A stretch of DNA of 48,239 bases from positions 1 to 48,239 of IMG/VR virus record IMGVR_UViG_3300008448_000147. The stretch is one strand, 5' to 3'. Below the pieces are notes generated by a model. The model made no database searches. It saw only the letters and a program-made list of their open reading frames with translations, and had not been told where the DNA came from. Origin of the DNA: a virus. Shown piece after piece: positions 16,668 to 45,121 of this stretch (position 1 is the stretch's first letter; each line of letters begins with the position of its first letter). Made by a program: the position numbers and the translations under genes.

Positions 16668-19600
16668 TTATTTTTTTCTAGTTTTCTTTCTTAGAACAGT
16701 AGATGCTACATCTCCTACATTACCAGTTCTATTCATTCTATCAGATAACGTAGTACCACTTCCAACCCCCGTTAATGCATTACCACTAACTCCACTAACA
16801 ACATTAGTTCCATATCCAGGTTTTGATGTATCTACTACAGTAGTTACTTCAACTTTTTCTTTATTTCTTAAGTCAGTTAATCTTCTCTGATCTTCTTCTC
16901 TTCTTTTACGCTCTTCTTCTTCTATTCTTTTTCTATTCTCTTCTTCTATTCTTCGTCTTTCTAGTTCTTCATAATAAGCAGTTTTTTGCGCCTCACGTTC
17001 ATCGACTTTCCACCATTTATCTTGTGGAATTAATCTAGTAGGTTCAGGAGTTTCATCAGAAATTTTTAATGATGCATCAATATTAATCATTTCGACTAAT
17101 GAGAAATAATCATAAGGCCAATTATATGAATATTCAGGTCTCCTATCCCCAGAAATAAATGAGAATTTAAATCTTTGATCATCCTTAGAATCTGCTGTTA
17201 ATTTATAATAATTCGTATTAGCTCTTTTCTTTACTTTAAATACTTTCCATCTTATATCTTTTGGTAAAGTTTTTCCATGAAAAAATTCATTTTCTGTTAA
17301 ATCATGAGATAAAGTAACAGAGTCTTTTTCTGCAATTCTAGAAATTTTTGGCATCAGACCTTGCCACATATCTAATAAATCTTCTTTATCTAATATATGA
17401 TTAAATTCAATAATATACATAACAAATGGATCTATATTTTTATTTGATATCCAATCCAAATTTGGAGGTAGATTATAATTAAACATATTTTTCATTGTTT
17501 TAACTATAGAGTTATTTTGCTCTACGGTAATATCATTTAATCTATTATTTAATTGTTCTAATGTTAATTTAGAAGATTTTATGTCTAAACCGATAATAGA
17601 ATTAATTTTATTGGTATCTACATAAAAATAACTTGGTTTATTTTGTGTATCTGCTGATTTTCTATCGCTACCATAAAATCCAAACTCTCCGCTTAAAGGA
17701 AGTATTGTTCTCGCTGTAGATTTATCTCCTACATGATTTTTTTCTAATGTATATGGGATCATAACTATAGCTTCTGATATATTTTTTTCTTCCGCAATAG
17801 TTCCTATGTTTTTTACTTCCTGATTAAAACCACATAAATCTATTAAAGAGTCTGAATAAATATCAGTTTTAATGCCTGATCTCTCTTTTATCTCTAAACG
17901 TAATTTTTCTTTTTCACTTGGAATGTTTCCATAAGCCATCCAATAATCATTAGTGTCAGTAGTTGAAACAACAGGACACTCAAACTTTGTTTGAATTACC
18001 CATCTATCAAGACTATTATCGGGATTATCTGAAATATTTAATGGATTTCCTGCCTGATCAAATTGAACTATCCTTTCACTAGATTTTTGTAAATAATTTA
18101 AACTGGATGTTAGGGACATTATTTCTGTGTTAGCAGGTAGTCCTAAACCATAGTAATTAACCATAGTTGATATTGTATAATTTTCTTTCCAGAAGTTACT
18201 TCTTTTTTGCAAAATATTATTCACAATATTGCTTGCACTTACATACGAATAAGTGGCAGAAGGAGTTCCAGCGGAATAAACAACTAAATTACTTAAAATT
18301 TCATCTAAAGAATATTTTCTTGTATCAGTAGGAGTAAATGCTAAAGTCATATAACTTTCTCCATAGTGATATGGTGGACTATAAGCTCCATGTGTCCACG
18401 AATTTACAGCTGAGTCTATCATTCCTTCTATATAAACAGTATTACCTGGTAAGGTTGATGCATAACTGCAAAATCCAGGTCCATAGTGATTTCTACTTCC
18501 ACTCGCTGAATAATCTTTATTAAGGTTTTCTTCTTTAGATAGCACTATGTCTAAAGTATAGGCAACTCCAGATACAGCAACTTTAAAATCTTTCTGAGGT
18601 GAAGATACAAATGATGTAAGTCCTTTATTTTTTAAAAAAAAGTTAGGAATCTCGGATAAGAAATTGTGCATAGCCATTTTATATCTATTATCTTTAAAAT
18701 TAAATGTATTGTTTGCAACGCCAGTGAGATTAGTGCTTAAGTTATAAAAAGGAACAATATAGTTAGACCTATCTTCCGATTCTGGAGTTGATGCTGATAT
18801 CATACTATAACTATAATATGCTGGATTTATGTAGTAGAGAGATGCGCTTTGAGCTATGTTAGCTGGTATAATTGTATCAAACTCTAATAAAGATTCAAAT
18901 GGCATTCTATAGTTAGCTCTACTTCTAAGTTGAAATTCTCTTTCTACAGCGCCAGTAATAACTGTAAGATATGGCGACCCAAACGGTCCACCAGTTCGTT
19001 CCCAGCCTCTAACTAAGGCACCGGTTGTATAAAAATGAGGTAATCTTCTATAATTATTATTTATCTCACTATCCCCAAAAGATCCAGTATTTATATAAGC
19101 AGGCCAATCACAGGCTATACCAGCTTTAATACTATTAAATAATATACCAGGTGAAAATAAAGGTTGAGTTAAGGAAAGCATCTGTTGATTATATGTTGGA
19201 CCGAGATAATCAGTTGCTCCATATGATACAGTATGTCTTCCCCTTTCTGTTGAATCCCCAACCCATGAATTACAAAAATGGTAAAATAATTGTACAGATC
19301 TCTCTGAAGGATAAAATCCTTTATATGGCAACAGCTTTTTGATACCATCAATAGTTATTTCTAATTTCTTATTACCTATTTCTTCAAAAATATCAGAATG
19401 GAAGTTGTTGGTTAAATTTAGATTGCCTGTAACATTTATAAATTCTTCGTCTGCTCCATCTAAAGATAAATAAGAAGAAGTATATATAGCATTAAAATCA
19501 CCATTGTTATCTTTTATATAAAAGTCAGAAACATCATGAAATTTATATTCTGGTACGTAAGAATATTCATATGCTGAATATTTAATATCTTCATAAAAAT

Positions 19601-22600
19601 CTTGATAAGAATCAAAAAATGGTTTTTTACCACTAGAAGTCATTGTATATGTTGTTCCTGTATTAAATGAAACAAACTCAACCCCTCCAGTAACAAACTT
19701 TGGGCCTGGATTCATAAAGAACAATTGTGGTCTTGGGATAAATTCACTATTTGACATTGATAATACAGAAAATAATGTCTCATATTCCGTATATGGAACC
19801 AACTCTCCATATATATAATTACTTCCAGTCATAATATGACTTAATCTTGATCCTATCGTAACACTTCTTGTAATTAATGGACTAAATGATTTATCTAATT
19901 CAAAAATACTAGAAGTGTGGAAAGTATCAAAAGAAGAAGTTAGAGGGTGTACTAAGTATAAATGGTTAGGATGTGCTAACCAATTATCATTATAATGACA
20001 AGCTGTAATTATATCTGATCTTACAGTTTTTCCTCTTAGAGTGTTAGATCCTGAAAAATAAGATGAATAAGAACTTGATTCAAGAGCACCAAAAGAACTG
20101 GTTGAAATATGTGTTGATCTTATTCTATTTAATATATTATCTTTCCAAAAAGTTCTCACATTAGCAATATTTCCATTTCTTCCATTTGATCCCGTAGTTC
20201 CATCTGATTCATAGTTTGGTTTACTTCTTATTCTACTAAGAGTTGAATATAATTTAGAAGGGAATATTTTTTTCTTATGTTCCGCTCTTTTTAGCTCAAA
20301 CGAAGAATTGTTCTCATATAAAAATCTATATTTAGAATAGTCTAGTTTATTTATTTCCACATCTTTAATGTCTAGTTTTAATTGAAGACCTTCATTTGCG
20401 AATGAAGAAGAAATATTATCATATTCATTTAGCATGTATGGCTCATAAAATATTTTATTTTCTTCTAATTTATATTGATTTGTTAAAATAGAGTTTTTTG
20501 TTTTATCTAGGATCACTTGCTTAATAGGATAGTTATACTGCACAGGCGGTTCTTTGTACGAGCTAAATGTATTCAAAAACCCACTTGATTGTCTATCCTG
20601 TGTAGATATTTCATTATCTTGAACTGTTATAATATTTTCTTTTTTGTTTAATCTAACTAAATTGTTATCGTTATTTCTTATCTGTTTCCAAGAAGGATAT
20701 CTATAAACTGAGTTATTATTTAACAAAAATTCTCTATATGGATTTCTATTAGGTCCGCTTAAATCAGTTAATGCTTCATTATTTAAATATACAAGATTAG
20801 ATGATCTATCATATGTTTTAGTATTTCCCATAAAGATATTGCTTACTGATACTGGTTCTACTTTTTTGATTACATTATAAATGTTCGGCGGAGAATTAAG
20901 GAAATCATATACATAGAAACTGATATTTTCTAATGTACCGCTTGTATCTCTAACATATAAACCAGCTGCTGTCATATCATAATTAGTGAAGCTGGAATAT
21001 TGAATTATTCTATTTGTAAGTCTTGCGGATGATATATCCCAAGCAGTTGAAAGAGTAAATTCATATAATCCGTCTGGTAACAACAATGGATCGTCGTCTT
21101 GAACGTCAGAACTGACATATAATTTTGTTCCATCAGAAGAAAATCTAATTGAGTCAGGATTTCCCATTAAAACAGCACATCCAGTAAGACTTGTTGCAAA
21201 ACTACTAGATGTATGAATTTCTGCGCTATCGCGAGTAACACCAGCATTAATTGTAAACGGAGTAGCTAAAGAAAATTGATATATTTTTTTATCTACATTG
21301 TTAGCTATGTACATCTTTGTACCATCTGGTTTAAACTCTAATCCCTTACCCATGTTAGAACCAGTAACTAGCGTTTGTGCTGCAACTGTAGATAATTTTA
21401 AAAAGTTCCAAGCATCTGCAGCTGCTAAAGTAGAAGATTTTGTTATTCTTGAGTTGTATTCATCTAGTATAAAAATTTCTCTTCCATTGGGATTAATCCA
21501 AATTCCTTGAGGATATATACCAGCAGCACTTCCACCTAAAAGAGTTCCAATGTTAATAGACCCAGTAGATATAATACTTGTTATATCCCAAGCATATTGA
21601 AGATCATATTGCCATAATGTAGAATTTGCAGCCACACCGCCAGCAGTAGCATAAAGTCTTTTTCCATCTGGTTTAAAATATATCTCTAGGCCATATTGAA
21701 CTATTGAATCTCTATTTTTTACATAAATAGACTCTATTGTTTCATTGACACCTGTTAAGAAAGTTATATAGTTGGCTAAACTAGATGATGCTTGGCTGTT
21801 TATATAACCACCAATCCCTAAATTACCAGTTACAGAAGCTGTAATCCAGCTATAATTTCTATCAGATCTAGGAATTTGGTGCTGGACAAATTGATTATCG
21901 TATTCTACTCCTTGAGTGGTTATGGTTGTTGAAGTACCTGATAAAACTGCTTGATAAAGAGCATTTTTATTTACCTTGTGTAAAGAAGGAAAATTTGAAT
22001 CAATACTAGAAGTATTTGAATGCCAAGCATTTAAATATTTTCTTACTTTTTGGTTTCTATTATTTATTGAGTTATATACACTATACTCTTCACTATCTTC
22101 GTCTAATGCTCCTCTTGCATTTGTTTCTGCACCAGGGGTTGAGAATCTATTAACTATAACTGTTGAATTTGCTTTTCTTTCTCTTAATTGTTTTTCTCTA
22201 AATATACTATTAGAACTTGCAGTAGAAGAATAGTTCATGGCTCCACTGTTAATCAATTCAGTGTTTGTATCATATCTGCTATTTAAAGATAATACTTCAT
22301 ATCCTTTACTATAATTACCAAGTTCTTCTTTAGAAATATTATGTTGAATATTTCTTATATTCACCGGACTTTTAATTCTTGTATTTCTGTATAACAATCC
22401 ATTAATCGATGCAGCTGGTGCTACAGAAGAAGATCCATCTGTCAGATATAATTCTTTTCTATCTAAAGTTTGATTAATAGAATTATGTCTATGAGAGTTC
22501 CCGCCTACATGTGCATCGGTAAATGGTCCTTGTAAACCAATTTCTCTTGTTTCTGTATAGGCATCAGAAAAGTTATTAGTAATATAATTTGTATTATTTG

Positions 22601-25600
22601 ATGTATTTTTAAATACACTGAAAGGTAAAATGCCTTCAGAGTTTAAAGAAAATAGATCATCCAGATTCCCACTTATTGAAGTATACAATTTTTGCTTCAA
22701 TAGCGATAAATCTTCAGTTGATTCATTGACACTGGCTGAGAAGATTATATTAAAATTATTTCCCTGTGCATATAGACTCTTTATAAATTTATACTTATTC
22801 ATTGGTTTTAAGTCATGAACACTTGAAACCACTGATAATGCATTTGAAAATAATCTAACTTTATCTTCATAATTGTTATAAGCTATATTTAAATTTTTAT
22901 CAAATGCGTTATAAATTGTATTTATATTCTTATGATATGAAGCCTTTCTGATCTGTTCTCTATCTGCATCAACTTCTAAAACTCCACTCGAAGAGGAAAC
23001 ATCGGTCACTCTATTCGCTCTTTGTTTTGCCCATGTTTTTCCAGAAGGAGAAGAAGGTGGTTTAATATCGCTATAATTAATATTTGTTGTTGTGATAGAT
23101 GTTGGACTAGAAATAAATATGCTTTTTTGTGGAGGATTGCTTATCATAGAAAAAGCTCTAGATTGACGGATTTTATTTCTTTCCATCACATGGCTTTCTA
23201 TTGTATTTGATATAAAGTTATTAGATTGTGCTGAAGCTGGAACTAGTCTTGATAGCATTTCTATTATAGAAGAATCTATCCATTTATAGAATTCTATATA
23301 TTTTTCTAGATCTGGTGTAGAACCTAGTTTGTTAAAATATAGAGTTCTAAAATATTCTAATTGTTTATAGTTATCTGAATAGTTATTTATTTTGTGACCA
23401 ATTATTGTATTTAAATCATTTACAGAAGAGAATAATTTTATAGCATCTTCTGAAATTGTTTGATACATGCTTTTTTCAAAAATCATCTGATAATCAGTTG
23501 TCTTAACATCTTTATTTGTTCTAATAGTTTCATTGCTTACTATTTGAATCATATCATCACCAGAAATTATTTCTGGTAGCTTACTTTTATTTGATGAAAG
23601 ATAATATGATTTACCGACTTCTGAATTACTAGATGGGAATCCGTATCCCCTCGCACTATGTTTTTTAAATAAGTTTTGACTATAATCACCATATCTTCTA
23701 TCGTTTAAACTACCAGAAGATAAATCGTATGAGTAGAAATTACCACCAGAATTAGATCCTGTAATATTATCAAAATTCCAATGAAGAACTAATGTATCCA
23801 AATTAGTAATATTCAATGTTCTTAGGGAATTGATTCCTTTATAAGCTATGGCATCAGGATCTTTTATTCCATAAAGATCAGGGTTTAATGCATGGTTATT
23901 TATCTGTGTGTTATCTAAGTAATTTAGCCAATACTTAACAGAAAACACTCCAACATCAGAATAATTTATAACTGATCCTGTAAAGTTTTGTCTATTTGCT
24001 CCAACATATAACCTTCTAAAGTTTTTTAATGCAGAAACTGCTGTCGCGTTAGTTATTGTTGTGGAGCTAGAGAAAGAATTTACTATATCGCCGGCAACCG
24101 TATTTACGCCATAAAATTCTAATCTATAATCTTCACTGGCTGAAGCAAAAGAAATGTCAGCTAATTCATATTTTGGATGCAATATTCTAACAGCTAAATT
24201 CCATCTTTCATCATTATAGGCATTATATATGATTGGCGATTCTAAGTATTTTCCTCCAAAAGCAGAAGAACTTAAAACAAATCTTATATGAGGACTCTCA
24301 TATGAAGTTTTTACAGCATAGACTTGAAAATTAAAATTGTCTGGGGATTGAAATGAAAGATCTCTTTCATCTGAAGCTGCTTGATACACACCATATATAG
24401 AAGATGTTAGGTATCCAAACTCAAAATATTGAGGTGAGTCATCTTCAAATTTTTTAGGAAGAAATATTTCTGCTTCTATTGTATTTGGCACTAATTCAAA
24501 ATTATTTAAAGAAGAAGAAATTCTTAGATATCCTCTTTCATCTGATTGTCCAAACACAGAAGCTGATTGAAATACAGTAGCTGAGAAACTTGAAGTATTA
24601 TTAAAATTAACATATCTTCTTGTATATGTTTCTTGCTCCAAATTATCTTCTATCAAATACTCTGAATTATTTGCATATATATTAGGTTTTACTATTTTTT
24701 CATCGATTCCAAAAGTTCTTAGAAGATTTCTTATTGATTTTGATGTTCCCTTAGATTTATATAAATAAATTAAATTATTGTATATATTTCTTAGTATTTG
24801 ATTTTTTACTTCATGTACTTTTTCATCAAAATTTAAGTTTTTATTTTTTGAATCCAATAATTCATATAAAGAGGTGTCTGAAAGAATATCCGACACATCG
24901 AAATCATATGAAGTTAAAATTTTATCGTAGAAAGGTAGTGCTTTTTCACTTCCAAATGAAGGATATTCTGAATATCCAAGAGTTTTTAATTTATCTATTT
25001 GTACATGCAAATTATCAAAATAACTTCCAATAATTTGCATCAAATTTTTAATTTCATCTCGTCCTTCTCTTTGCTCTTCTTCAACAATCCAAGAAGGAAT
25101 TGTATTTATAAGCATATTTGGATTATTTTCATCATACTCACTACCAGTGGTTTCATATAGAGAGTATAAGTTTACAACATCAGAGTGATTTGCATAAATA
25201 ATTGGATCTTTTGGTTCAGTAATGCTTGGATTAGCTAATTCCATAGCTGAACCAGTTGATCTATCAGAAGAATTAAAATAATTTACTATTGTTCCATTGC
25301 AGATATGTCCTGAGTAATCCAAACATATTGAATCTATACTAGAAGTTCCTGTAGTGCCTTCATTAAATTTATAGTAAACTCCTAAGTTTTGATTATTTTC
25401 ATCATTGTTAACACCGCCTCCGACATGAGAATACATGTTTAATCTAATGTCAGATTCATCTCTTTCCTCATTCCAGAATCTAAATTCATCAAATGAGCCA
25501 TATACAGAATATAAAGTTGGACCCTGTGTTAGTCCAAGTGTAGATAACATACCACTTCCCAGAACACCTGTAATATTATAAGAAGATGATAAAAATCCAT

Positions 25601-26420
25601 TTGTAGTTTGTCCTGCTGAAGCACTTGTTGATACTAATACTCCATCTAAGTAAACTTTTGTAACTAAGTTGGATCCGCTATTTATAACTGAAATAGCGTA
25701 ATGATGCCAACTATCTATCTGTGTAGTTACGGAAGAAATTGTTTTAACACTATTAACATATCCATATGAACCAGATCTATAAGTAAGAACTAAATTACTG
25801 TCCTGAAAGTAGCCAGCAAATCTTCCATAATCACTACTAGAAGCGGTTACATTATTCCAAAAATCAAATACTCTTTGAATATTGCTTGGGGATCCATTTC
25901 TTTTAAACCAAAATTCAATAGTATTGCCTCTTCTACCATCTAAATTAAGATTATAATTAATGTCTGATTCCGTTTTATCGGCTTTTGTAAAAATAGAACT
26001 AGAGTTATAGTTTCCATAAAATATTATATATTGAGGTCTTGATGTTGTGGTGGAAGAAACATAGTAAGAATTCCAAGATGAAGAACCTAAATTAATAAAG
26101 CCAGTTGTTTTTGGATAAGAATTGTCTAAAATATGCAAATCTAGATCAGTTGCATTATTTCTCCACTCTTGTCTTTCTTTTTTAGATCCATCATATGGAT
26201 AAGTTAAATAAATATTATTAATAGAATCTGTATAATATTTTTCTGCAGATCCATACCTTGCAAAATAACTAGCAGTTGAGTAGTCTACTGGATAGTAGGT
26301 TCTTTCCCTCTCAGTAACTGCTTGCTCCATGTATTCCTTAGAGCCGAGTTTTTCATTTATACTATCTAATGATTCTTTTTGAGTGCTGTTATTTAATTCT
26401 AATAAGTCTTTTAGATTCAT
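16668..26420 (-). CDS. Giant 3250-residue virion protein with LamG-like and beta-propeller-like regions
   Basis: One uninterrupted frame of 9753 bases. Residues about 115-340 look like a concanavalin/LamG jellyroll (GNTIEFWFKRNGSPS, WHHYAISVINSG, VTKVYLDGVLVSTSA, GSFDEFRFWNEERDESDI). Residues about 1560-1840 contain repeated GLEFKPDGTKMYIAN, SIRFSSDGTKLYVSS and GLEIYFKPDGKRLYAT units with the blade spacing of a beta-propeller. The rest is Ser/Asn/Tyr-rich, with helical patches near 440-560. Residues about 3140-3190 form a Glu/Arg-rich coiled coil (EENRKRIEEEERKRREEDQR), and the tail is Gly/Thr/Val-rich. The gene follows the gp6 and DNRLRE-like genes, where T4 has wedge protein gp7. I infer a giant baseplate wedge or peripheral fibre protein with glycan-binding potential; the function is untested. 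Confidence 0.75.
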   Translation of the reverse strand: MNLKDLLELNNSTQKESLDSINEKLGSKEYMEQAVTERERTYYPVDYSTASYFARYGSAEKYYTDSINNIYLTYPYDGSKKERQEWRNNATDLDLHILDNSYPKTTGFINLGSSSWNSYYVSSTTTSRPQYIIFYGNYNSSSIFTKADKTESDINYNLNLDGRRGNTIEFWFKRNGSPSNIQRVFDFWNNVTASSSDYGRFAGYFQDSNLVLTYRSGSYGYVNSVKTISSVTTQIDSWHHYAISVINSGSNLVTKVYLDGVLVSTSASAGQTTNGFLSSSYNITGVLGSGMLSTLGLTQGPTLYSVYGSFDEFRFWNEERDESDIRLNMYSHVGGGVNNDENNQNLGVYYKFNEGTTGTSSIDSICLDYSGHICNGTIVNYFNSSDRSTGSAMELANPSITEPKDPIIYANHSDVVNLYSLYETTGSEYDENNPNMLINTIPSWIVEEEQREGRDEIKNLMQIIGSYFDNLHVQIDKLKTLGYSEYPSFGSEKALPFYDKILTSYDFDVSDILSDTSLYELLDSKNKNLNFDEKVHEVKNQILRNIYNNLIYLYKSKGTSKSIRNLLRTFGIDEKIVKPNIYANNSEYLIEDNLEQETYTRRYVNFNNTSSFSATVFQSASVFGQSDERGYLRISSSLNNFELVPNTIEAEIFLPKKFEDDSPQYFEFGYLTSSIYGVYQAASDERDLSFQSPDNFNFQVYAVKTSYESPHIRFVLSSSAFGGKYLESPIIYNAYNDERWNLAVRILHPKYELADISFASASEDYRLEFYGVNTVAGDIVNSFSSSTTITNATAVSALKNFRRLYVGANRQNFTGSVINYSDVGVFSVKYWLNYLDNTQINNHALNPDLYGIKDPDAIAYKGINSLRTLNITNLDTLVLHWNFDNITGSNSGGNFYSYDLSSGSLNDRRYGDYSQNLFKKHSARGYGFPSSNSEVGKSYYLSSNKSKLPEIISGDDMIQIVSNETIRTNKDVKTTDYQMIFEKSMYQTISEDAIKLFSSVNDLNTIIGHKINNYSDNYKQLEYFRTLYFNKLGSTPDLEKYIEFYKWIDSSIIEMLSRLVPASAQSNNFISNTIESHVMERNKIRQSRAFSMISNPPQKSIFISSPTSITTTNINYSDIKPPSSPSGKTWAKQRANRVTDVSSSSGVLEVDADREQIRKASYHKNINTIYNAFDKNLNIAYNNYEDKVRLFSNALSVVSSVHDLKPMNKYKFIKSLYAQGNNFNIIFSASVNESTEDLSLLKQKLYTSISGNLDDLFSLNSEGILPFSVFKNTSNNTNYITNNFSDAYTETREIGLQGPFTDAHVGGNSHRHNSINQTLDRKELYLTDGSSSVAPAASINGLLYRNTRIKSPVNIRNIQHNISKEELGNYSKGYEVLSLNSRYDTNTELINSGAMNYSSTASSNSIFREKQLRERKANSTVIVNRFSTPGAETNARGALDEDSEEYSVYNSINNRNQKVRKYLNAWHSNTSSIDSNFPSLHKVNKNALYQAVLSGTSTTITTQGVEYDNQFVQHQIPRSDRNYSWITASVTGNLGIGGYINSQASSSLANYITFLTGVNETIESIYVKNRDSIVQYGLEIYFKPDGKRLYATAGGVAANSTLWQYDLQYAWDITSIISTGSINIGTLLGGSAAGIYPQGIWINPNGREIFILDEYNSRITKSSTLAAADAWNFLKLSTVAAQTLVTGSNMGKGLEFKPDGTKMYIANNVDKKIYQFSLATPFTINAGVTRDSAEIHTSSSFATSLTGCAVLMGNPDSIRFSSDGTKLYVSSDVQDDDPLLLPDGLYEFTLSTAWDISSARLTNRIIQYSSFTNYDMTAAGLYVRDTSGTLENISFYVYDFLNSPPNIYNVIKKVEPVSVSNIFMGNTKTYDRSSNLVYLNNEALTDLSGPNRNPYREFLLNNNSVYRYPSWKQIRNNDNNLVRLNKKENIITVQDNEISTQDRQSSGFLNTFSSYKEPPVQYNYPIKQVILDKTKNSILTNQYKLEENKIFYEPYMLNEYDNISSSFANEGLQLKLDIKDVEINKLDYSKYRFLYENNSSFELKRAEHKKKIFPSKLYSTLSRIRSKPNYESDGTTGSNGRNGNIANVRTFWKDNILNRIRSTHISTSSFGALESSSYSSYFSGSNTLRGKTVRSDIITACHYNDNWLAHPNHLYLVHPLTSSFDTFHTSSIFELDKSFSPLITRSVTIGSRLSHIMTGSNYIYGELVPYTEYETLFSVLSMSNSEFIPRPQLFFMNPGPKFVTGGVEFVSFNTGTTYTMTSSGKKPFFDSYQDFYEDIKYSAYEYSYVPEYKFHDVSDFYIKDNNGDFNAIYTSSYLSLDGADEEFINVTGNLNLTNNFHSDIFEEIGNKKLEITIDGIKKLLPYKGFYPSERSVQLFYHFCNSWVGDSTERGRHTVSYGATDYLGPTYNQQMLSLTQPLFSPGILFNSIKAGIACDWPAYINTGSFGDSEINNNYRRLPHFYTTGALVRGWERTGGPFGSPYLTVITGAVEREFQLRSRANYRMPFESLLEFDTIIPANIAQSASLYYINPAYYSYSMISASTPESEDRSNYIVPFYNLSTNLTGVANNTFNFKDNRYKMAMHNFLSEIPNFFLKNKGLTSFVSSPQKDFKVAVSGVAYTLDIVLSKEENLNKDYSASGSRNHYGPGFCSYASTLPGNTVYIEGMIDSAVNSWTHGAYSPPYHYGESYMTLAFTPTDTRKYSLDEILSNLVVYSAGTPSATYSYVSASNIVNNILQKRSNFWKENYTISTMVNYYGLGLPANTEIMSLTSSLNYLQKSSERIVQFDQAGNPLNISDNPDNSLDRWVIQTKFECPVVSTTDTNDYWMAYGNIPSEKEKLRLEIKERSGIKTDIYSDSLIDLCGFNQEVKNIGTIAEEKNISEAIVMIPYTLEKNHVGDKSTARTILPLSGEFGFYGSDRKSADTQNKPSYFYVDTNKINSIIGLDIKSSKLTLEQLNNRLNDITVEQNNSIVKTMKNMFNYNLPPNLDWISNKNIDPFVMYIIEFNHILDKEDLLDMWQGLMPKISRIAEKDSVTLSHDLTENEFFHGKTLPKDIRWKVFKVKKRANTNYYKLTADSKDDQRFKFSFISGDRRPEYSYNWPYDYFSLVEMINIDASLKISDETPEPTRLIPQDKWWKVDEREAQKTAYYEELERRRIEEENRKRIEEEERKRREEDQRRLTDLRNKEKVEVTTVVDTSKPGYGTNVVSGVSGNALTGVGSGTTLSDRMNRTGNVGDVASTVLRKKTRKK

Positions 26421-26422
26421 TT

Positions 26423-27847
26423 TTATTCAACCCTAAATTTATATACTTGCTTATATTCTTCTAAAACGTTTCCATCCCACCTAGCTAATTGTAAACCATA
26501 AGAATAATCAGGCTCTAAAATATTCATGTCAAAATTAAAATAATTTCCATTTGTGTCATATGAGGTTTTTGTATATTCTAATGAGCCAGTTGAGTATGGT
26601 ACTATTTCAAGTCCATCATCTATTCTATATATTCTATAGAATAGATTTTTAACAACAGAATTTTCTATATTTCTTGTTGAGACACTATAGACGTTTGGAT
26701 CCCAATCTTTCAGTCTACTAAATATTCTAAATATAACATTTTCTCCACTTGAGTATTTAGTTTTCATATTGGTAATTGAAAAAACATATTGTTCATTTGA
26801 ATAAAAATCTTGTGCATTATATTGATTAACATCAAAAGAACTAGAAAAGTATATTACTGATTGGTTACCAGATAAATGCCATTTATCATATAAAGCACTT
26901 GCAGTAGTAGACACTCTAATACTTGCTTTATAAACCCCAATAGAAGGATTACTTACAGAAGAAGAAACAACAGATACTTGATTTGTATAATTACTGTCTG
27001 AATATAATTTAATTTGTAGATTAGGATTGGAATTTATATTTTTTAATTTTCCATTAAATCTATTGTAAAAATATAAATTATATGTATTATCAGAATCACT
27101 TAAAAGACTGCTTGTAGAATAAAAGGATCCCCTATCGTCTTTAACTACATCTTCCCATCTACATTCTATTATTGGTTTTTTAAAGAAATATTGAGTTCCT
27201 CTTGAGAAGAATTTTTTTGTATAATAACTATTTCGCTTACTTCCATCTTCGTAAGAACCAGATAATTTTACTAAAAATCCATTATTATTTAATGTACCAC
27301 TTATCCAATTTTCTACTAAGTTTGTTACATCTACTTCTAAATCTTCATTTCCTTTTAAAAAGTGTTGTTTTATATCATAACTTTGGGTTATAAAAGAACT
27401 ACCAGTTCCTTCCCATGCAGATCCAGATTTTGCATATATCCAGTTAGTCCCGTACCCATTATAAACTCCAAACCCTGGATCTGAATAATTTTCCATATCT
27501 AATCCATATCCTTCATCCCACGATTGAGATAGCGGATAAACAGAAAGATAATAATCTTTTGGAAGGCTGAATGGATGTTGTGCGTTATATAATTTAAAAA
27601 AGAAACTTACGCTACCAGAGGCTGGAATTTTTCCAGAAGCTCTATCGGATATAATATCTGATACTGGGAATCTTACTAGTGCTCTTGATAATTCTAAAGA
27701 AGAGGTTGTAACTTGAGCATATAAAGAAAATACCTCCATAGAATCAGAAGCCCCCATATTTGAGCCAGTTGCCCTATAGACAAGATTTTCTTTATAAGCA
27801 TTTGTTATGGTAGTATCTGCTTCCGCATTATATCTTTTGATAGACAT
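26423..27847 (-). CDS. DNRLRE-like baseplate protein
   Basis: A 474-residue beta-rich protein. The N-terminus matches the general layout of DNRLRE-type domains: an opening ADTTITNAYKEN, a GASDSMEV motif, ALVRFPVSDI, SFFFKLYNAQHPF, LSQSWDEGYG, and DVTNLVENWISG followed by NNGFLVKLSG. Such domains occur in secreted and surface proteins and in phage tail proteins. The C-terminal half looks like two or more Ig-like beta domains (PNLQIKLYSDSNYTNQVS, KYSSGENVIFRIFSRL). Its ATG overlaps the gp6 stop as TAATG. It is probably a baseplate component bridging gp6 and the giant downstream protein. Confidence 0.65.
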   Translation of the reverse strand: MSIKRYNAEADTTITNAYKENLVYRATGSNMGASDSMEVFSLYAQVTTSSLELSRALVRFPVSDIISDRASGKIPASGSVSFFFKLYNAQHPFSLPKDYYLSVYPLSQSWDEGYGLDMENYSDPGFGVYNGYGTNWIYAKSGSAWEGTGSSFITQSYDIKQHFLKGNEDLEVDVTNLVENWISGTLNNNGFLVKLSGSYEDGSKRNSYYTKKFFSRGTQYFFKKPIIECRWEDVVKDDRGSFYSTSSLLSDSDNTYNLYFYNRFNGKLKNINSNPNLQIKLYSDSNYTNQVSVVSSSVSNPSIGVYKASIRVSTTASALYDKWHLSGNQSVIYFSSSFDVNQYNAQDFYSNEQYVFSITNMKTKYSSGENVIFRIFSRLKDWDPNVYSVSTRNIENSVVKNLFYRIYRIDDGLEIVPYSTGSLEYTKTSYDTNGNYFNFDMNILEPDYSYGLQLARWDGNVLEEYKQVYKFRVE

Positions 27848-29652
27848 TAAATTATTCTTCCTTCAACGTCAGATGTTGGGTATTTTAATTCCATTACAAC
27901 ATTTTTTGGAACTCTAATAAATGTACCGTCTTTAGTCATATTTTCATCAAAATTAAATGAATAGTTTGAATAAGATACGGTTGATGAATCTAATTTATTT
28001 GTGATCATTACAGATCTTACGTCTATTAATCCATCAACCTTTCTTAATGCATTGTACACTCTAGCAATATGTAAATGTTCTCCTATGTCCATTTTTATAG
28101 AAAATTCATTTATAACAGCTTGAATTCCATTAGCTAAAACATCGTATTTATTATAATTTCTGTCTATCATAGCAGTAAAATATATTCCAAAGTTAACTAC
28201 ATATGGATCTAAAATTTCTATATTATCATTTATCATTTTACTCTTATTTAGCCAATTCTTTAAATTATTTTTTGTAGAATTATTAGCAGACACTAAATTT
28301 CCATCATCATCCTCTGAAAGAACATAGAGGTTAATTTTCTTTTGTCCAGCGTGATAACCCTGCATTGCTCTTACTCTTCTTATTGCACCATATTTTCCAG
28401 GCATATTATAACATAAAGCTTCATAATCACTTGTTGTTACTGCTCTGTTTTGTGCTGAAAAAGTACCATAGATTTTATTTTTTATTTCTTCGGATGTAAA
28501 TTCATCTTGAAATCCAACTATAGGGAACTCATTTGTAACTCTTATTCCATTTCTTACTATAGCTAACATTCCTATATCTAGATTTTGCTGGTCTTGAAAT
28601 TCCAGTACTGGATTTGCAACTCTTGTTATAGAATTTGATGGGGTTGCCATCATAATTGTTTCGTCTGCTCGATATTTAATGGTAATTATTGTATTCGATG
28701 GTGCTATTCCTAGTTTATCATTTGATACTAAAATAGAAGGATCAAAACTTTCATCCGTTATGTAGTCTTTTCCATAAGAATTAATTACAACATTGGATGG
28801 ATCTAATTTTTTATTATTATTAAATATTGTAGAGGAATCACTAGCACCTCCAAATTGTATATAAACACCATCATCTTCTCGTACAACAATAAACCTTCTT
28901 GCAACTCCATAAGGTTTTAAAAGAGAAGGAGTCTGAGATCTTTGCGAAGCGTCTGGATTTAAAGTAGATCTATAAATTACATTTTGCGTTAGATAATCGA
29001 CTTCATAATACTCATTTCCGTTTGTATCTACTACTGATAATATCTCACTTATATTATTAAAGCCTACTTTTACTTTTTTAAATTTTTCAAAATCTCCTAT
29101 TGAAATAGTAGTTTCTTCCTCTAGACCAGAAATTACTTTTCCATATGTTTTAGCAACAAATTGAAAAGGGCTATTTTCATTAATTTTTGATTTTCTAATT
29201 TCTGTATTAGATGTTGTCATCACAACATCATCTATTAATGTATAATTATTTCCGTTATTGGAAGAAAAAGAAGTACCTTTTTTTATAACTGGGAGATAGT
29301 TGCTATCATAAGAAGTACCGAAAGAGTTGGCTGGAATTGGAACATAAATTGTTACAATTCCAGATGCTGCAGTTGCTAATTTTGGCCTGTATCCTAATGC
29401 TTTTCCTAGTTTTAAAATATTTCCATACTCTATCGCTGTTGCCAAAAATGATTCATTTGCCTGGTAATCTAGGTAGTACGATAAAACATCTCCAACATAA
29501 GCAACCATATCAGTAACAAGAGATCCAAAAGATCCCTCATTAAAATCTTGATGAACATCTGGATAATATTTCTTGGCGTAATTAACTAAATCAGTTTTTA
29601 TACTATCAAAATCCCTTGATGTATACCTAATAATTGGCGTTCTTTTAGACAT
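27847..29652 (-). CDS. Baseplate wedge protein gp6 / baseplate J-like
   Basis: A 601-residue homologue of the T4 gp6/P2 gpJ family, which forms the ring holding the baseplate wedges around the hub. Diagnostic features are YTSRDFDSIKTDL at 10-22, the segment GSFGSLVTDMVAYVGDVLSYYLD at about 40-62 with ANESFLATA after it, and GKALGYRPK near 84-92. The middle contains the beta domain, and AVTTSDYEALCYNMPGKYGA near residue 411 is the conserved core of baseplate J proteins. The order gp25 then gp6 is the usual one in contractile tails. GAGAGGG lies before the ATG. Confidence 0.9.
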   Translation of the reverse strand: MSKRTPIIRYTSRDFDSIKTDLVNYAKKYYPDVHQDFNEGSFGSLVTDMVAYVGDVLSYYLDYQANESFLATAIEYGNILKLGKALGYRPKLATAASGIVTIYVPIPANSFGTSYDSNYLPVIKKGTSFSSNNGNNYTLIDDVVMTTSNTEIRKSKINENSPFQFVAKTYGKVISGLEEETTISIGDFEKFKKVKVGFNNISEILSVVDTNGNEYYEVDYLTQNVIYRSTLNPDASQRSQTPSLLKPYGVARRFIVVREDDGVYIQFGGASDSSTIFNNNKKLDPSNVVINSYGKDYITDESFDPSILVSNDKLGIAPSNTIITIKYRADETIMMATPSNSITRVANPVLEFQDQQNLDIGMLAIVRNGIRVTNEFPIVGFQDEFTSEEIKNKIYGTFSAQNRAVTTSDYEALCYNMPGKYGAIRRVRAMQGYHAGQKKINLYVLSEDDDGNLVSANNSTKNNLKNWLNKSKMINDNIEILDPYVVNFGIYFTAMIDRNYNKYDVLANGIQAVINEFSIKMDIGEHLHIARVYNALRKVDGLIDVRSVMITNKLDSSTVSYSNYSFNFDENMTKDGTFIRVPKNVVMELKYPTSDVEGRII

Positions 29653-29666
29653 TTTTTTCCCTCTCA

Positions 29667-29680
29667 GAAATATAATTAGT
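29667..29680 (-). repeat. Short repeated leader element, copy 2
   Basis: On the minus strand this reads ACTAATTATATTTC and spans the gp25 stop codon. It lies 14 bases before the gp6 start, just ahead of a GAGAGGG ribosome-binding site. It matches copy 1 at 11117-11130 at 13 of 14 positions. Confidence 0.3.
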
Positions 29681-30062
29681 CTGGGTTAAGAATTAATTCG
29701 ATACTATCTCTTTCTTTTAGAGAAGGAACAGAATAAGAAATTGAAATAAAAACAGCATTTTGTTCTTGTGGCAAAATATCCGTTATATCTATATCTTGAA
29801 TTATAATATATGGCATATATTTTTGTATTTGATTCCTTATTATTCTTTCCATATCTATTTCAGATACTGATTCTTTTCTGTTAAAAAATAGCAATCTTTT
29901 AGCACCGACTCCATAATCAGTATTCATAATTCTCTCACCGGGATTAGTTAAGATAAGCATTTTTAAATTTTGCTTTATAACCTCTCGTAGATCTTTATTC
30001 ATCTTATAAAAACCATCACCAGCATCATATTTTAATGGAACTTGAACGGAATACCCTTTCAT
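29676..30062 (-). CDS. Baseplate wedge protein gp25 (GPW/gp25 family)
   Basis: A 128-residue member of the GPW/gp25 family, a lysozyme-like-fold wedge component that initiates sheath polymerisation in contractile tails. The signature TNPGERIMNTDYGVG lies at 39-53, matching the conserved PGER core. It is preceded by a helix DLREVIKQNLKMLIL and followed by IRNQIQKYMPYIIIQDIDI. The length is typical (T4 gp25 has 132 residues). GAGGA precedes the ATG. It sits between the 2226-residue giant and gp6, as expected for a wedge operon. Confidence 0.92.
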   Translation of the reverse strand: MKGYSVQVPLKYDAGDGFYKMNKDLREVIKQNLKMLILTNPGERIMNTDYGVGAKRLLFFNRKESVSEIDMERIIRNQIQKYMPYIIIQDIDITDILPQEQNAVFISISYSVPSLKERDSIELILNPD

Positions 30063-30078
30063 CTATTTTCCTCATATT

Positions 30079-33000
30079 TTAAGAATATTGTAGATCTATC
30101 ATTTGTTCTTCTGTCAATTCGATCTTTGGTTTTAGTGCTTTTTTTGCCATTCTAGCAATATTACAAGAATCTGCTTTGTAGTTAGATTTTACATTTAAAA
30201 AGTTAATTGCATTAGTTGTATTTACTGTTTCATTATTTGATGTATCATCAATAAAATCGTCATACCAACATCCTAATAAATAATACGCTAAACCAAAAGG
30301 AGTTGGAGGAATAAAACAGAATGTTAATGCAAGACCCGCAGCTGGTGTTGCGTAAAATAAACCGTGAGACATGTTAAAACCTATTCTTCTCATGACATCT
30401 TCCGCATAAGGTAATCCTTTTAATGCACCTTCTTCATAAATTCTTGGAGGAGGAGGCTTTAAATCATCAGGACCATATGTTTTTTCTGGTAACATGGGGA
30501 TCTGATTCATTATAGCAAGAGTGATAGGTCTTGCTATATTATACGGTAGTGATGCTAAAAATACGTTAGGATCACCTACTTCACACAAACCTTTTAACAT
30601 CTGCCATGGTGTTTGTACAGCAAGCCTTAAAATAAGAGGTAGAAGAGATTGCCATCCGGCTTCTTGATCTCCAGAATTAGCTGTAGAATTTCCTCCATTT
30701 GCTGGAGCGCCACCAAGATCATTATTATTTTTATAGCCATTTCCAGCCATTAAAGAGTTGTGTCTAGCCTTTAGAGCTGCTTTTGTACTAAAAAATGTTT
30801 TCATGCTTTGTAATCTTGCATTGTTAGCCATTATGGCTTGCATTGTAACTACGCTTATATATTTTCTAATTGGAAAACAGAACTCAAACAAGAATTTAAA
30901 TGTTATAGATTTTTTAAATTTGCTCTTAGTTACCAATATCTTCTTTGATTTAAAATATAACTCTAAAGTTTCTCCTTTTGTATCAATCACTCTCCCGCCT
31001 GCAACAGGTACTTTGGTTTGAGAGCTGTTTTTTACAACTGTAAATATTTTTTCAGATGGATCTCTATTTTCAAAAAACTTCAATATATGACCTTGGATAT
31101 TGTCATAGTTTTCAAATTGTTGTAATTCATATTGTGACTCATATTTTTTTGTTTCATCTCCATATACAAAAAGTCTTTGCCAAGGAGCTGCATTCTTTTC
31201 ATTTATTACATTGTTGATTTTTTTTGTTACTCTAGTAGAAATATAAAGTATTTGCGATTTTATAACTTTTTTAAAAATTTCTTTTTTGGTTCTCGCTGAT
31301 AGTGTATCGTATCTCTCTCCTGTTTTAATTTCTATTTTTTTAGATTCAGTGGGATTTTTCTTATAGAAGTAAGAAACACATTGATCTAAAAATCTTTGAT
31401 AGTAAATAGGTTCAAAAGATTTCATTTCTATCTCAAAACATCTAGATAAAAATTCCAACATTGGATCAGTAGCTACAATACCAATAGGATATTTATCAAA
31501 TAAGAAAATTCCTTTTAAGAAATAATCATATATATAGACTCTTAAGGTTGCTAGTAAAAATGCATCAGACATAGCTCTTTCTGTAGGATGCATATTTTCT
31601 CTTTTACCTCCAGTTGGATTAGGAGGCTCATTGTTACATGCTTCCTCTCTAAAATCGTTAATCACATCTTCGATTATTTCGTCTAAATCCAGGGAATTAT
31701 TATTAATTCCACAAAATTGATCACTATTTGTTCCTGGTGGCTCTCTTAAAGTTGCTTGAAACTTTTTAAGATTTGACATATTTTTATAAGGTGTATTTCC
31801 AATATTATCAGGCTTCTTATAAAAGAAACTTTGTTTTAAATCATTATATATATCAGACATAAATTCACTCTCTATGTCAGAATAATTTATTTCTTTTGGA
31901 TCTATTTTTCTAATTTGCGTCATATATTTTTCAAAAGCATATTGTTGTATACTAGAGCTTCCATTATAACCAGCTAGAAGATTATTATTTTTTATATACA
32001 TCGCAATGTCTGGGCTTATTTCTTCCAAATAAGATGAAGAAATAAATGGATTTAAATTTTTTGTAATGTTAATGTTGCTTACTTGGGATAAAAATTCACT
32101 AGTTCTTGCTCTCTCGGGTGAGATCACAGATCCAAAAGTATATTTTATATCATAATTTGGAAAAGCAATATCTGCTGATGCTAATTGCTTTCTAGCGTCT
32201 TCTAATTGTGCATCTAAAGTACTAACCTCTGATTGCAAACCACTTATTGCATCTAAAATTGTTGTCCAAATACCAGAAATAGCTTTAAATGCAAATGATT
32301 CTTCAAATAATTTAATATCCCTACTTATACCCTCCGCCAAACTATCTATCCCAGCAAATAATTCGGTTGTTCCCAGTTTATTTTCAGGAATCAAAAATTC
32401 ATCTTGTCTTTGAGCATTATCTAAATTTGCTGTAGCTGTTTTTTCTGCCTGTTTGGCTGCATCTAATCCCTGTTGAGTAGTTTCTGTAATTCCAAATCTC
32501 TCGGCAGCACTTTTCGCATTTGGATCACTAGGGTTATTTAAATAATTTTCATATGCCGCTCTTTTGTCTATTGCCGCTTTTTTTTCATTTTCAAGAACCA
32601 CAACTTCTGCTGAGGTTTTTCCTTTTGATTGAATTGTAGATGCGTAAGAGGAATCATATGTAGCAACAATTGTATCACCAGAAGTAACAGTATACACAGA
32701 ATCAGCTCTTTTTGCTACAGCAACACGAGTTCCAGCTGGAGCCGCTCTTGCGGCTTCTGTTCTAATACTTCTATTTACGGTAGATATCTGTGATACATCT
32801 CCTATGCCTACTCTTTGCGCTCCTTGTGTTCTCACAGCACCGGTAATATCAGCAATAAACACATCTAATAATTCATATATTGCCCATAATCCAGCTAGAA
32901 GCGTACTCCACCATCCATCCCAGCCGCCCTTATAACGTTTTTCTAGATCCTGTAAACCAATCCAAAATCCTGCATCTTCTTCAATAGTGCCAGCGGCCCA

Positions 33001-36000
33001 TTGTTCTAGTAGTGTTATACCTCCGTTTACAAGTTCGGTTGTTATTTGATAATAAATTGTACCCATCTTTTCGGCGGCTATTCTTTTAATTTCATCTTGT
33101 ATGCCTGTATTTAACTGTGCTTCTGCTAATATTTTAAATTTTTCTCTCTCTATGTCTGAATTAACTCTTGTGTTTATAATTATTTCAGATAAATTTTTAG
33201 TAATCTCTAGAAAATCCACTCTTTCTAGCGTTTGTGTTAATATTGGAGAAATTACCATATTTGAGGTATCTACATTATTTTTATTTTCATTACTTTCAGA
33301 TTGTTGAGATTGATCATTGGATTTTGGTTTTGGAAATGCATCATCTGACAATTTCCATTGTTTTACTCCGTTTATTTCTTTTTGTTTCGCCCCAGTTTTC
33401 TTTTCATAATCTTCATACTTAATACCACCATTTTCGTCTAATACATAATCTGCTACTAATATGCCTTTTGCAATTAACATTGCTAAAAGTTTTTCTCTAT
33501 TTTCTTCTGCAGCTTTAGTATTTGAAGCGTTAGAGCCGCCCAAAGGAGATGTTGAAGCAGCTGAAAGAGTTTTTATCTCTTCTGGAGTCAGACTTATTTT
33601 AGGATTTTCAATCATATTAGCTGACCACTCTTTTAAGTCGCTATTAAACATTTCATAATATGGCTGTAAAGATCCTTGTAGTGTACCTTGGAACATATCA
33701 AGATAGTTAGTATCAACTTTTGCAGGATTTATAATTCCTGGCTTTCCATTTCTACACAACATAGGTAATTGTTCCGGGGTTCTTGTCACACCGTCCAATA
33801 AATCGGAAAGTCTTTTATTTTTTTCATCCTCTGCATCAGCAATTAAACCCTCAATTTGTTCTGGTGTTAGGCCGTTTTGTGCTAGAGCATCTTTTAATGC
33901 TTTTGTAGCAGATTCCGTAGAACAAATATTGGTATTTTCTTGAGCTATTTGATCTCCTAATTTTTTGCACACGTCTGAAATATTTAAAATCTGTCCTAAT
34001 TTTTGAAATAAGTATTCCACTTCAGATCTGGTTTTTAGTACTGATGATATATTTGGATACTTAGCTTCTATTATAGCTCTGACCAAAGATAAAATATCAT
34101 CTGTTGCTGTACCTTCTGCAATCAATCTACAAATCTCTGTAGGATTCATAAGACATGCAATATCTGCAATTAAATTTTTTAAGTCTTCTTTTGCTCTCTC
34201 TCTTTCTTGTATGTCTTCATCAGAATTTCCTGTAGGAAGCCCCATTGCTCCATATATGTCCGCAATAGAACTATTAGAAAAAGGATTATCTTGATTATCT
34301 AAAATTGCATCTAGTGCTGCAGAAAGACCTAGTTCTTGATCTGAAGTAAAAGGAGAATTTTTGCCTTGTCCTTGTTTTGAACAATTAGCCATAAGTTTTA
34401 TAAGCTCTTTTATAGCAATATTGAAAGTTTCAATTATAGCTTGTGATAATGCAGTAACATACGCATCTCTTAAGGCTTTTGACATATCAGAAGGATTAAA
34501 TTTTGGAACTTTGTAAGCAGCTAAAGCTTTAATTAACATATCCATGAAAGGAGTGCAGAAAAATTTAGTTAAAGCTTCTTGTATCCTTTTTTTTAAATCA
34601 CTATTAAATTGTGAATCTAAATTAGCCAATGCTTGTTGATTATTTGCATCCCTTATCCAACAAATAATTTGTTGTAATAAAGCTCTCTGAAAGTTTGTCT
34701 CTCTTAGAGTTTTTTTGAGAAGATGCAAAGCAGCAGGACCAGGTTTACTCCAATCTCCATAACCAGCATTTTTAATTGCACTAAGGGTATCATCACCAAA
34801 GGTAGGAGGTTCAGGATCTGTTGTTGGTAAAGTAGCTGCTGGAGTTGATGCTGCCTGTTTGTCTGCTTCTGCATCAAAATCTATCCATCTTCTTTTGCCG
34901 CCTCTAGCATAAGCTAGTTGTTTTTTAAAGTTAGCTTCTGCAACAGGTGCTACGGCTTTTATTGAATTATAACCTTTTATAATTCCATCTTCCCAAAGTT
35001 TTTTCATGTTATTTTTTGCACAATCAAAATCTCTTTTAGGGATATCTATTTCTTTTGGCTGTGGAATAACAAATTTTTCTATATACTTATCGATATCTAA
35101 ATTATTTCTAAGCTCTTTATTCCATTCTCCTTCATATGTTGCTAAATCGGTAATAATTTTATATGTACAGTAGTTATATAAAAAGAAGCCGCTTCTATTT
35201 GATATAACCCCATAACTTCCAAATTCATTTTCAAATATATACCCATCAATTACAAAAGTTTGTGCTATACCATCTCTAACGATATCTATATATGCTATAT
35301 TAAATTGATCTGTCAATCCAAAAGCTATATTATTTTTTGTAGCATCTGTATATAAAACATCATGTTCTATGGTATTTATTTCTAATAATTTTTTAATAGT
35401 TATTAAAAAGTTTCCTACATTATCTTTATCATAGAATTTTTTAGCTTCTTTTCTTAAATCTAATTCTATCAACTCTAAATAATTGTCAGCCGTTAAAGCA
35501 CCCATGTACTGATCAGCTGCTTTTAAGGCAAAATTAAATTGCTCCTCTCCTCTACTAGCTAAAATTTTAGATATATCTTTTATAGTTTCAGCAAAGCTAT
35601 TATAGTTTAAAAAACTATAAGTTACTATGTATTTAATATCTTCTGGATTTACTGAGGGATCTAATAGGCCACCAGTAACTCCATCTTTAGCAGCTTGTAG
35701 TGGATCTGCTCTATAATCAATTAAATCAGTAGAAGATAGATATTTTTTAGGAAACACTACAAGTGTATAAAAATTTGAACAAGGTCTAAGTTTTATAGCC
35801 CAATCTCTAGCATATCCGAATAGATAAAATCTATCAGACATTTGTTTTATATAATCTTCAGAGTTTTTCTTAGCGTTAGATTTAAAAATTAATCTTAAGC
35901 CGGTGAAATAAGCATCTTCAACATATTTTTGTATTTTTTCATCAGTAAGTTCAAGGCCATCATATTCCGCTTCTACTGAACAGTAATACAATTCACTCCT

Positions 36001-41194: not shown

Positions 41195-42139
41195 TTATAC
41201 TCCTCTTATATTTGGATAATTTTTTTTAAACCAGTCACAAGTCTTCTTTATCCCTACTTCTAAACTTGTATACGTTTCTTCTTTCCATCCTAAATCTAGA
41301 AATTTTTTATTAGAAGTTGGTTTACGAATTTGTCCTTTTGGTTTTTTATTATCATACGTTATATCACCATTATATTCTAATTCTTTAGAAATTAAAGTAA
41401 TAACATCTTTTAATTTGTATTCTTTAGTAGATCCAATATTTACTGGATCTCCGGTATAATTATTATCTAATAAGAATTTTATCGCTTTAGCAATATCTTC
41501 AGCATAAGTAAACTCACGATAAACTTCACCATCACCCCAAACTTCAAACGATGGTTTATTATTAATTTTTGCCTCCCAGATTTTACGGATTAAAGATGGG
41601 ATAACATGACCATTCTCAAGATCAAAATTATCATGTTCTCCATACATGTTGTTTGGAATAACTGATATATATTCTGTACTGTATTGTTGATTTGCTGCTT
41701 TTAATTGAACATCAACCATACGTTTTGCATAAGCATATCCAAAATTTGAATCATGTGGAGGGCCATTATGAAGCTGATCTTCAGTTAGTGGATAATTTAC
41801 ATATTTTTCGTCTGGGTATATACACGTTGATAGACAACAAATTAACTTTGGGACATCTGTAAATATACAAGATTGAATAATGTTGTTATTTATCTCAGAG
41901 TTTGTGTTATAAAAATCAGAAATATAGCGAGTATTTGCTTTTACTCCTCCAACCTTTCCTGCTAAATGTATTACTGCTTTTATTTTTGATTCGGAGAATT
42001 CATTAAAATTATCAAAATATCGATGAGTATCATCATAGTTTTCTAAGTTTAATTCTTTATGTGTTGGATAGAGAGCATCCGGTAATATTTTTTTAAATGC
42101 ACTTCCAAGTAATCCAGAGCCGCCAGTTATAATAATCAT
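41195..42139 (-). CDS. GDP-L-fucose synthase-like NAD(P)-dependent epimerase/reductase
   Basis: A 314-residue extended short-chain dehydrogenase. The N-terminus has the nucleotide-binding motif TGGSGLLGS at 5-13, followed by HLAGKVGGVKAN. The catalytic set of GDP-L-fucose synthase is present: S104 and C106 in STCIYP, Y135 and K139 in YAYAK, and H178 in GHVIP. NMYGEHDNFD and NFGYAYAKRM are family hallmarks. The enzyme makes GDP-L-fucose from GDP-4-keto-6-deoxymannose. No GDP-mannose 4,6-dehydratase is visible, so the substrate would come from the host or a gene outside the window. Relatives acting on other GDP-sugars cannot be excluded. GAGGA precedes the ATG. Confidence 0.88.
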   Translation of the reverse strand: MIIITGGSGLLGSAFKKILPDALYPTHKELNLENYDDTHRYFDNFNEFSESKIKAVIHLAGKVGGVKANTRYISDFYNTNSEINNNIIQSCIFTDVPKLICCLSTCIYPDEKYVNYPLTEDQLHNGPPHDSNFGYAYAKRMVDVQLKAANQQYSTEYISVIPNNMYGEHDNFDLENGHVIPSLIRKIWEAKINNKPSFEVWGDGEVYREFTYAEDIAKAIKFLLDNNYTGDPVNIGSTKEYKLKDVITLISKELEYNGDITYDNKKPKGQIRKPTSNKKFLDLGWKEETYTSLEVGIKKTCDWFKKNYPNIRGV

Positions 42140-42148
42140 ATAATTCCT

Positions 42149-42562
42149 CTAATATAATTCAGGAAAATCGGTACATACCCCTAATATATTTTTAGGTAGG
42201 TTTTTGTTGTGTCCAAATTCTACCGTAATCCCATCTTGTATATAAACACCAGGAAAACACCATAAATAATTTTTACTAGTTAAAGTAATTTTATCATTTT
42301 CATGCCAAAACCAATTTAACTCAGTATTTTTCAGTCTGATACAAGCATCAAAATTTTTAGCATGTAGCCACATTTTATTGCTAAAGAAAAAATTTGTTAC
42401 TTCGTATGTTGGTAAATCGTGTCCTAAAAACCATTTATTATTTACATACCAAACATCTACTTCAACTTCAAATTTTTTTATTACTTCTAAGATCCTATCT
42501 GGATTGTTTTCCAGATTTCTTTCTATGCCATTTAAATTTCCTCTATGTGATATAATTTTCAT
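42149..42562 (-). CDS. Compact glycerophosphodiester phosphodiesterase-like protein
   Basis: A 137-residue protein with the first three active-site blocks of the GDPD/PI-PLC-like barrel: H6-R7-G in IISHRGN, E34-V-D36 in VEVDVW, and G-H48-D49 in FLGHDLPTY. Full GDPD enzymes have about 230-250 residues, so half the barrel is shortened or missing. The ORF still ends normally and keeps a conserved-looking end (LGVCTDFPELY). Similar short proteins occur, from memory, in capsule-type clusters. It may hydrolyse a glycerophospho group on a glycan, but activity is uncertain. It overlaps the WavE-like gene by 20 bases. Confidence 0.7.
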   Translation of the reverse strand: MKIISHRGNLNGIERNLENNPDRILEVIKKFEVEVDVWYVNNKWFLGHDLPTYEVTNFFFSNKMWLHAKNFDACIRLKNTELNWFWHENDKITLTSKNYLWCFPGVYIQDGITVEFGHNKNLPKNILGVCTDFPELY

Positions 42563-45114: not shown

Positions 45115-45121
45115 ATTTTCC

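Follow-up and report, generated by a model that had tools for sequence, protein, structure and literature searches.

The baseplate wedge proteins gpI of phage P2, gp7 of phage T4 and TssG are equivalent, and belong to the pairs gpJ/gpI, gp6/gp7 and TssF/TssG, respectively (PMC6300606). P2 gpI has 176 aa and follows gpW and gpJ in the gene order W-J-I, and T4 gp7 has 1032 aa and follows gp6. A literature search found no paper on the family of the giant protein described here. Two phage proteins annotated as hypothetical have a core homologous to that of the giant protein described here: QQO92079.1 (1265 aa) of Flavobacterium phage immuto, which occupies the same place after gp25 and gp6, and WWT39511.1 (1336 aa) of Microcystis phage Mel-JY01, with 22 % identity in the core and the same operon position.

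The viral DNA that was analysed (the window, 48,239 nt) belongs to a large phage with a contractile tail and encodes a 3250-aa protein, probably a baseplate wedge subunit of the gp7/gpI/TssG type that added modules have enlarged. It resembles P2 gpI, T4 gp7 and TssG in its slot after the gp25/gpW-type and gp6/gpJ-type genes, in a KGT helix segment, and in being one long gene in the gp7 slot. It differs from them in its length, in a core combined with two LamG domains, in a variable lectin/propeller region and in a C-terminal module of ~1200 aa. The features of the locus, all on the minus strand, are as follows:

29676-30062, minus strand: gp25/gpW-type wedge protein (PF04965, E=4.9e-13)
27847-29652, minus strand: gp6/gpJ-type wedge protein (phrog_219, E=3.4e-21; hhalign to T4 gp6, probability 94.7 %, E=6.4e-8)
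26423-27847, minus strand: 474-aa protein that separates gp6 from the giant, as it does in 71 of 73 relatives
16668-26420, minus strand: giant ORF, 3250 aa from ATG to stop, probable gp7/gpI-type wedge protein with inserted modules
25206-26108, minus strand: LamG1, residues 105-405, LamG/pentraxin (concanavalin-like) fold by AlphaFold2 model and fold search (Z 17.6-20.9)
24621-25208, minus strand: first half of the putative wedge core, residues 405-600, helical, with a K-G-T motif invariant in 74 cores (hhalign score to gpI 30.4)
24687-24803, minus strand: Tail_P2_I-like segment, residues 540-578 (12.8 bits at E=0.0104, short of the curated PF09684 cut-off)
23766-24620, minus strand: LamG2, residues 601-885, LamG-like sandwich between the core halves (two-LamG PDB chains aligned over residues 106-940)
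23136-23765, minus strand: second half of the putative wedge core, residues 886-1095, with the motif LVPASA...ESHVMERNK, conserved in 70 sequences (pairwise identity 48 %)
21981-22673, minus strand: block m1, residues 1250-1480, in the middle of the protein, conserved (matched by HMM in most relatives)
20895-21734, minus strand: beta-propeller of about five blade-like repeats, residues 1563-1842, within the variable region (1l0q, E=4e-12; repeat HMM, E=2.4e-83)
17031-20738, minus strand: conserved C-terminal module (residues 1895-3130), encoded separately in some relatives and matched to no known fold
16851-17003, minus strand: charged ER/K-type helix, about residues 3140-3190, by composition

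The giant is a single frame of 3250 codons, as the preliminary description had reported (a single frame of about 10 kb, strand unstated). Its start lies 2 nt past the stop of the 474-aa gene, with the purine-rich sequence TTAGGGTTG upstream. The entire window is contained at 100 % identity within a 187,450-bp contig (G001), and a 126,749-bp contig from another sample (L001) encodes the first 2678 residues of the giant at 100 %; the frame did not arise from faulty assembly, since two longer contigs carry identical copies. Its length had been regarded as unusual for a tail protein, a view at odds with the homologous family itself, in which 70 complete core ORFs span 1155 to 4274 aa and a further one (L040) extends over 4502 aa before running off its contig. 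At least 397 loci of the family were confirmed in aquatic viromes. A PHROGs search with the whole giant gave no match.

The 187-kb contig encodes a contractile sheath (phrog_23, E=2.4e-64) together with a tube protein, portal, major head protein and terminase, and the phage is therefore a myophage. The nearest relatives of its terminase, at 41-42 %, are those of Microcystis phage Mel-JY01, LR756508 (a 484-kb uncultured phage) and Flavobacterium phage immuto; the core of the Mel-JY01 homologue likewise found matches, among 50,697 phage records, only in Mel-JY01, LR756508 and immuto. Along the minus strand the genes run gp25-type, gp6-type, 474-aa protein, giant and more genes of the same strand. 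This order is conserved: among the 73 relatives with sufficient upstream sequence, a gp6 homologue was located no more than 3 kb upstream of the giant in every case, and in 71 fewer than 60 nt separated the end of a homologue of the 474-aa protein from the start of the giant. The place of the giant after gp25 and gp6 thus matches that of gpI in P2, and, like gp7 in T4, it lies downstream of gp6, with the difference that one conserved 474-aa gene intervenes, at a slot where T4 and P2 have no gene. The 474-aa protein has a weak Disaggr_repeat match (E=1.3e-4, below the cut-off). A baseplate position after gp6 had been proposed beforehand, and the upstream gp25 and gp6 homologues and the contractile sheath agree with it.

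Directly upstream of gp25 is a second giant ORF of 2226 aa (window 30079-36759, minus strand), which gave no Pfam match; ORFs of ~2000 aa occupy the same place in several relatives. A RuBisCO-like protein of 397 aa is encoded at window positions 43921-45114 on the minus strand (PF00016, E=1.9e-33), the best PDB relative of which is 2oej, a 2,3-diketo-5-methylthiopentyl-1-phosphate enolase (E=7.6e-35). It keeps the KPK and KEDE motifs, scores far under the NCBIfam equivalog cut-offs of RuBisCO III, mtnW and OiaX, and has no match in the 50,697 phage records. Around it is a sugar-nucleotide-type gene cassette (window 41195-48239, minus strand, continuing to ~68.6 kb in the 187-kb contig), with an NAD-dependent epimerase (PF01370, E=7.6e-45), a nucleotidyltransferase (PF00483, E=1.3e-4) and a HAD-like protein recognised by its N-terminal motif. 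The same contig is otherwise minus-strand; at ~88-106 kb it has ORFs on the plus strand and long ORFs are scarce, and this stretch may represent a different class of genes or a join made during assembly.

The candidate wedge core consists of residues 405-600 and 886-1095, which all relatives conserve. Among 24,736 Pfam families, Tail_P2_I had the largest number of matching core sequences (7 out of 74, with 0.012 as the lowest E), and residues 540-578 of the giant are the sole PF09684 match in the 187-kb contig. All matches of the giant family to PF09684 are below its curated cut-off (20.6 bits, against 12.8 bits for the giant). The record of T4 gp7 itself has no PF09684 match either, so that such a match is not a necessary feature of gp7. 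When the core was compared by hhalign with 11 diverse gpI proteins, the KGT helix of gpI aligned with the giant segment NIYNNLIYLYKSKGTSKSIRNLLRTFGI with a score of 30.4 (P=0.00097), the probability being only 22 % over the 50 aligned columns. This score was reached by none of 400 column shuffles (maximum 22.2), and decoys, consisting of other operon families and other segments of the giant, scored at most 21.5 against gpI. A LamG-free immuto-type profile aligned the same motif with a score of 20.9, inside its own shuffle range. Homology of the core to gpI/gp7 is therefore likely but not proven, being supported statistically by the shuffles and not by the immuto-type profile.

Several further comparisons were less informative. 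Profile comparison of T4 gp7 with the core gave no significant match, and a PDB profile search with a six-row core alignment returned chance Rab-33B rows only. The fold search with the model of residues 1-1110 listed no wedge protein; LamG matches fill that list, and it is not evidence against one. Relatives of P2 gpI from viral_contigs were useless as a profile, all being 99-100 % identical, and were replaced by 10 diverse phage gpI proteins. Joining both core halves for hhalign scored 28.2, with no gain and a doubtful C-terminal alignment.

The likeness to gpI would be due to chance if the giant were a tail-fibre or tip-attachment protein merely encoded after gp6, with the LamG and propeller domains as its working part. 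LamG and propeller modules do dominate the sequence, they are all that Pfam recognises in the relatives, and the Tail_P2_I matches are sub-threshold. This explanation is nevertheless rather unlikely, as conservation within the first 1100 residues is highest in the N-terminus (mean pairwise identity 50 %) and the two core halves (49 % and 48 %) and not in LamG1 (45.5 %) or LamG2 (37 %), homologues free of LamG occur at the same place after gp6, neither the shuffles nor the same-operon decoys reach the score of the gpI match, and no other gene of the 187-kb contig provides a second Tail_P2_I match. A wedge subunit remains the preferred reading.

The LamG-like fold noted in the preliminary description was found twice in the giant. 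In an AlphaFold2 model of residues 1-1110 (70 sequences, pLDDT 78.6, pTM 0.58), residues 105-405 matched 4dqa (Z 19.9, rmsd 3.1, 204 residues), Limulus pentraxin (Z 19.4) and 1sac (Z 18.0 over 195 residues), that is with Z of about 20, and two-LamG PDB chains aligned across residues 106-940, thereby taking in the second domain at about 601-885. Relatives of the giant matched the LamG family PF13385 with E=3.6e-58. In the immuto homologue the core is continuous and without LamG2, its N-terminal part is unlike LamG1, and no propeller or conserved C-terminal module was recognised; the LamG domains have therefore either been added onto the wedge core or been lost in immuto. The Mel-JY01 homologue has a stretch of LamG2-like length between its core halves, with no Pfam LamG match, and is without the C-terminal module.

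The conservation of LamG1 comes close to that of the wedge core, a level that appears to fit a scaffold better than a hypervariable receptor binder and argues against simple receptor capture for all LamG domains. Pentraxin and LamG folds are frequent protein-protein interfaces. Both points would also suit a function that is compatible with a wedge subunit, in which the LamG and propeller domains bind phage proteins, such as long tail fibres or whiskers, and not host glycans; such binding is possible, if somewhat doubtful, in view of the variation between relatives in the region that follows the core. There, from about residue 1460 to 1905 of the giant, the stretch between the middle block and the C-terminal module ranges from 107 to 927 aa across 64 ORFs, and the type of domain shifts, with LamG_3 matched by 13 of 20 long inserts of relatives and a propeller in this phage, a pattern more like host-facing diversification.

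The propeller-like region reported earlier is a YVTN-type beta-propeller (residues 1563-1842), homologous by phmmer to the surface-layer beta-propeller 1l0q. It has the F-x-PDG-x-K-x-Y blade repeats in common with 1l0q and with marine bacterial and phage repeat proteins, and differs from 1l0q-type propellers in having about five blade-like repeats (counted by eye from the sequence) and in being embedded in a wedge protein. Relatives of the repeat were found in marine phages and SAR11 genomes, and the propeller was absent from all other giants fetched. An immuto-type wedge protein of 1860 aa (L299, 2840-8419, plus strand) has eight propeller HMM matches after its core, in the C-terminal ~1000 residues, and seems, from its sequence, to have combined a wedge core and a propeller independently. 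Insertion of propeller and LamG modules at one site was considered and rejected as a misalignment; the motif HxIPxSDxxYxWI separates the two, being preceded by the LamG insert in L007 and followed by the propeller in the giant.

Most relatives conserve residues 1895-3130, and at least eight of them (L014, L022, L042, L066, L070, L077, L082 and L083) encode the C-terminal module in an ORF of its own, downstream of the one for the core; in L077 this second ORF has its own start with AGGGAGCAATATG. Splits at other places occur in L026, L030 and L034. Searches of 50,697 phage records, of PHROGs and of PDB sequences returned nothing for the module. A model of it (947 aa, the second gene of L077; pLDDT 65.5, pTM 0.78) gave no PDB fold at E<=0.001 and a best VIA-align Z of 2.8, and at this pLDDT a new fold is not demonstrated. 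Foldseek returned only uncharacterised proteins of uncultured marine viruses (E 1.6e-58 to 3e-55); A0A0F7LAZ6, A0A1B1IWQ4 and A0A516M7I0 in UniProt have the same fold and were deposited without a function. The coiled coil described earlier does correspond to a helical segment at the C-terminus, but one that is ER/K-rich with few hydrophobic residues (residues 3136-3205 are 56 % charged and 14 % V/I/L/M/F), and is probably better called a charged ER/K-type helix of ~50 residues. In relatives, the end of the conserved module and the stop codon are usually no more than ~50 residues apart (median 48), so that such a tail seems specific to the present phage.

Since the C-terminal module is a separate ORF in at least eight relatives, either two or more units have been fused in the giant or those relatives are products of fission. 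It had been suggested that the protein replaces several T4 wedge genes. If this is taken to mean that several genes were fused, so that gp7 and other T4-type wedge or pin proteins (gp8, gp10, gp11) are provided by a single polypeptide, it is very improbable, even with the split genes in its favour: profile comparison of T4 gp8, gp9, gp10 and gp11 with segments of the giant and the tested neighbours gave no match, a weak negative because single T4 sequences give low sensitivity, and the C-terminal model had no PDB match at E<=0.001, likewise a weak negative at its pLDDT. Among T4 gp53-gp11 compared with the core and segments, the only match was that of T4 gp6 to the gp6-like neighbour. What stands of the suggestion is the gp7/gpI slot, the gpI-like core and the presence of two genes in several relatives; that the giant contains T4 gp8-gp11 is not supported.

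As a gp7/gpI-type subunit, the protein would pair through its core with the gp6-like neighbour, placing it in the inner wedge, and LamG1, which precedes the core, and LamG2, which lies between its halves, may mainly serve as scaffold by stiffening or decorating the wedge. The variable region follows the core, with an extra LamG in many relatives and the beta-propeller in this phage, and then the conserved C-terminal module. The variable modules would face outward and contact host-surface glycans or proteins, and the lectin or propeller modules at these sites probably hold the host surface, glycan binding being putative. Host contact would then act directly on the wedge, a part that rearranges upon sheath contraction.

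Most likely, the giant is a wedge protein of the gp7/gpI type that bears added modules, is encoded in split form in some relatives and belongs to a large, unannotated family of aquatic phages. More tentatively, and with some doubt, the family may represent a widespread class of aquatic myophages, unannotated so far, whose platform for host recognition is the wedge subunit itself, with swappable lectin or propeller modules in the gp7/gpI protein and a large conserved C-terminal module of a fold unseen in solved structures, the two halves having undergone repeated gene fusion or fission. If the giant is indeed a wedge subunit, abundant "hypothetical" giants of aquatic viromes would gain a function as baseplate wedge subunits, putative receptor-binding lectin modules would be carried on the wedge and not on fibres alone, host-range variation would be sought at residues ~1460-1905, and the conserved C-terminal module, for which no known fold was found, would become a target for structure determination.
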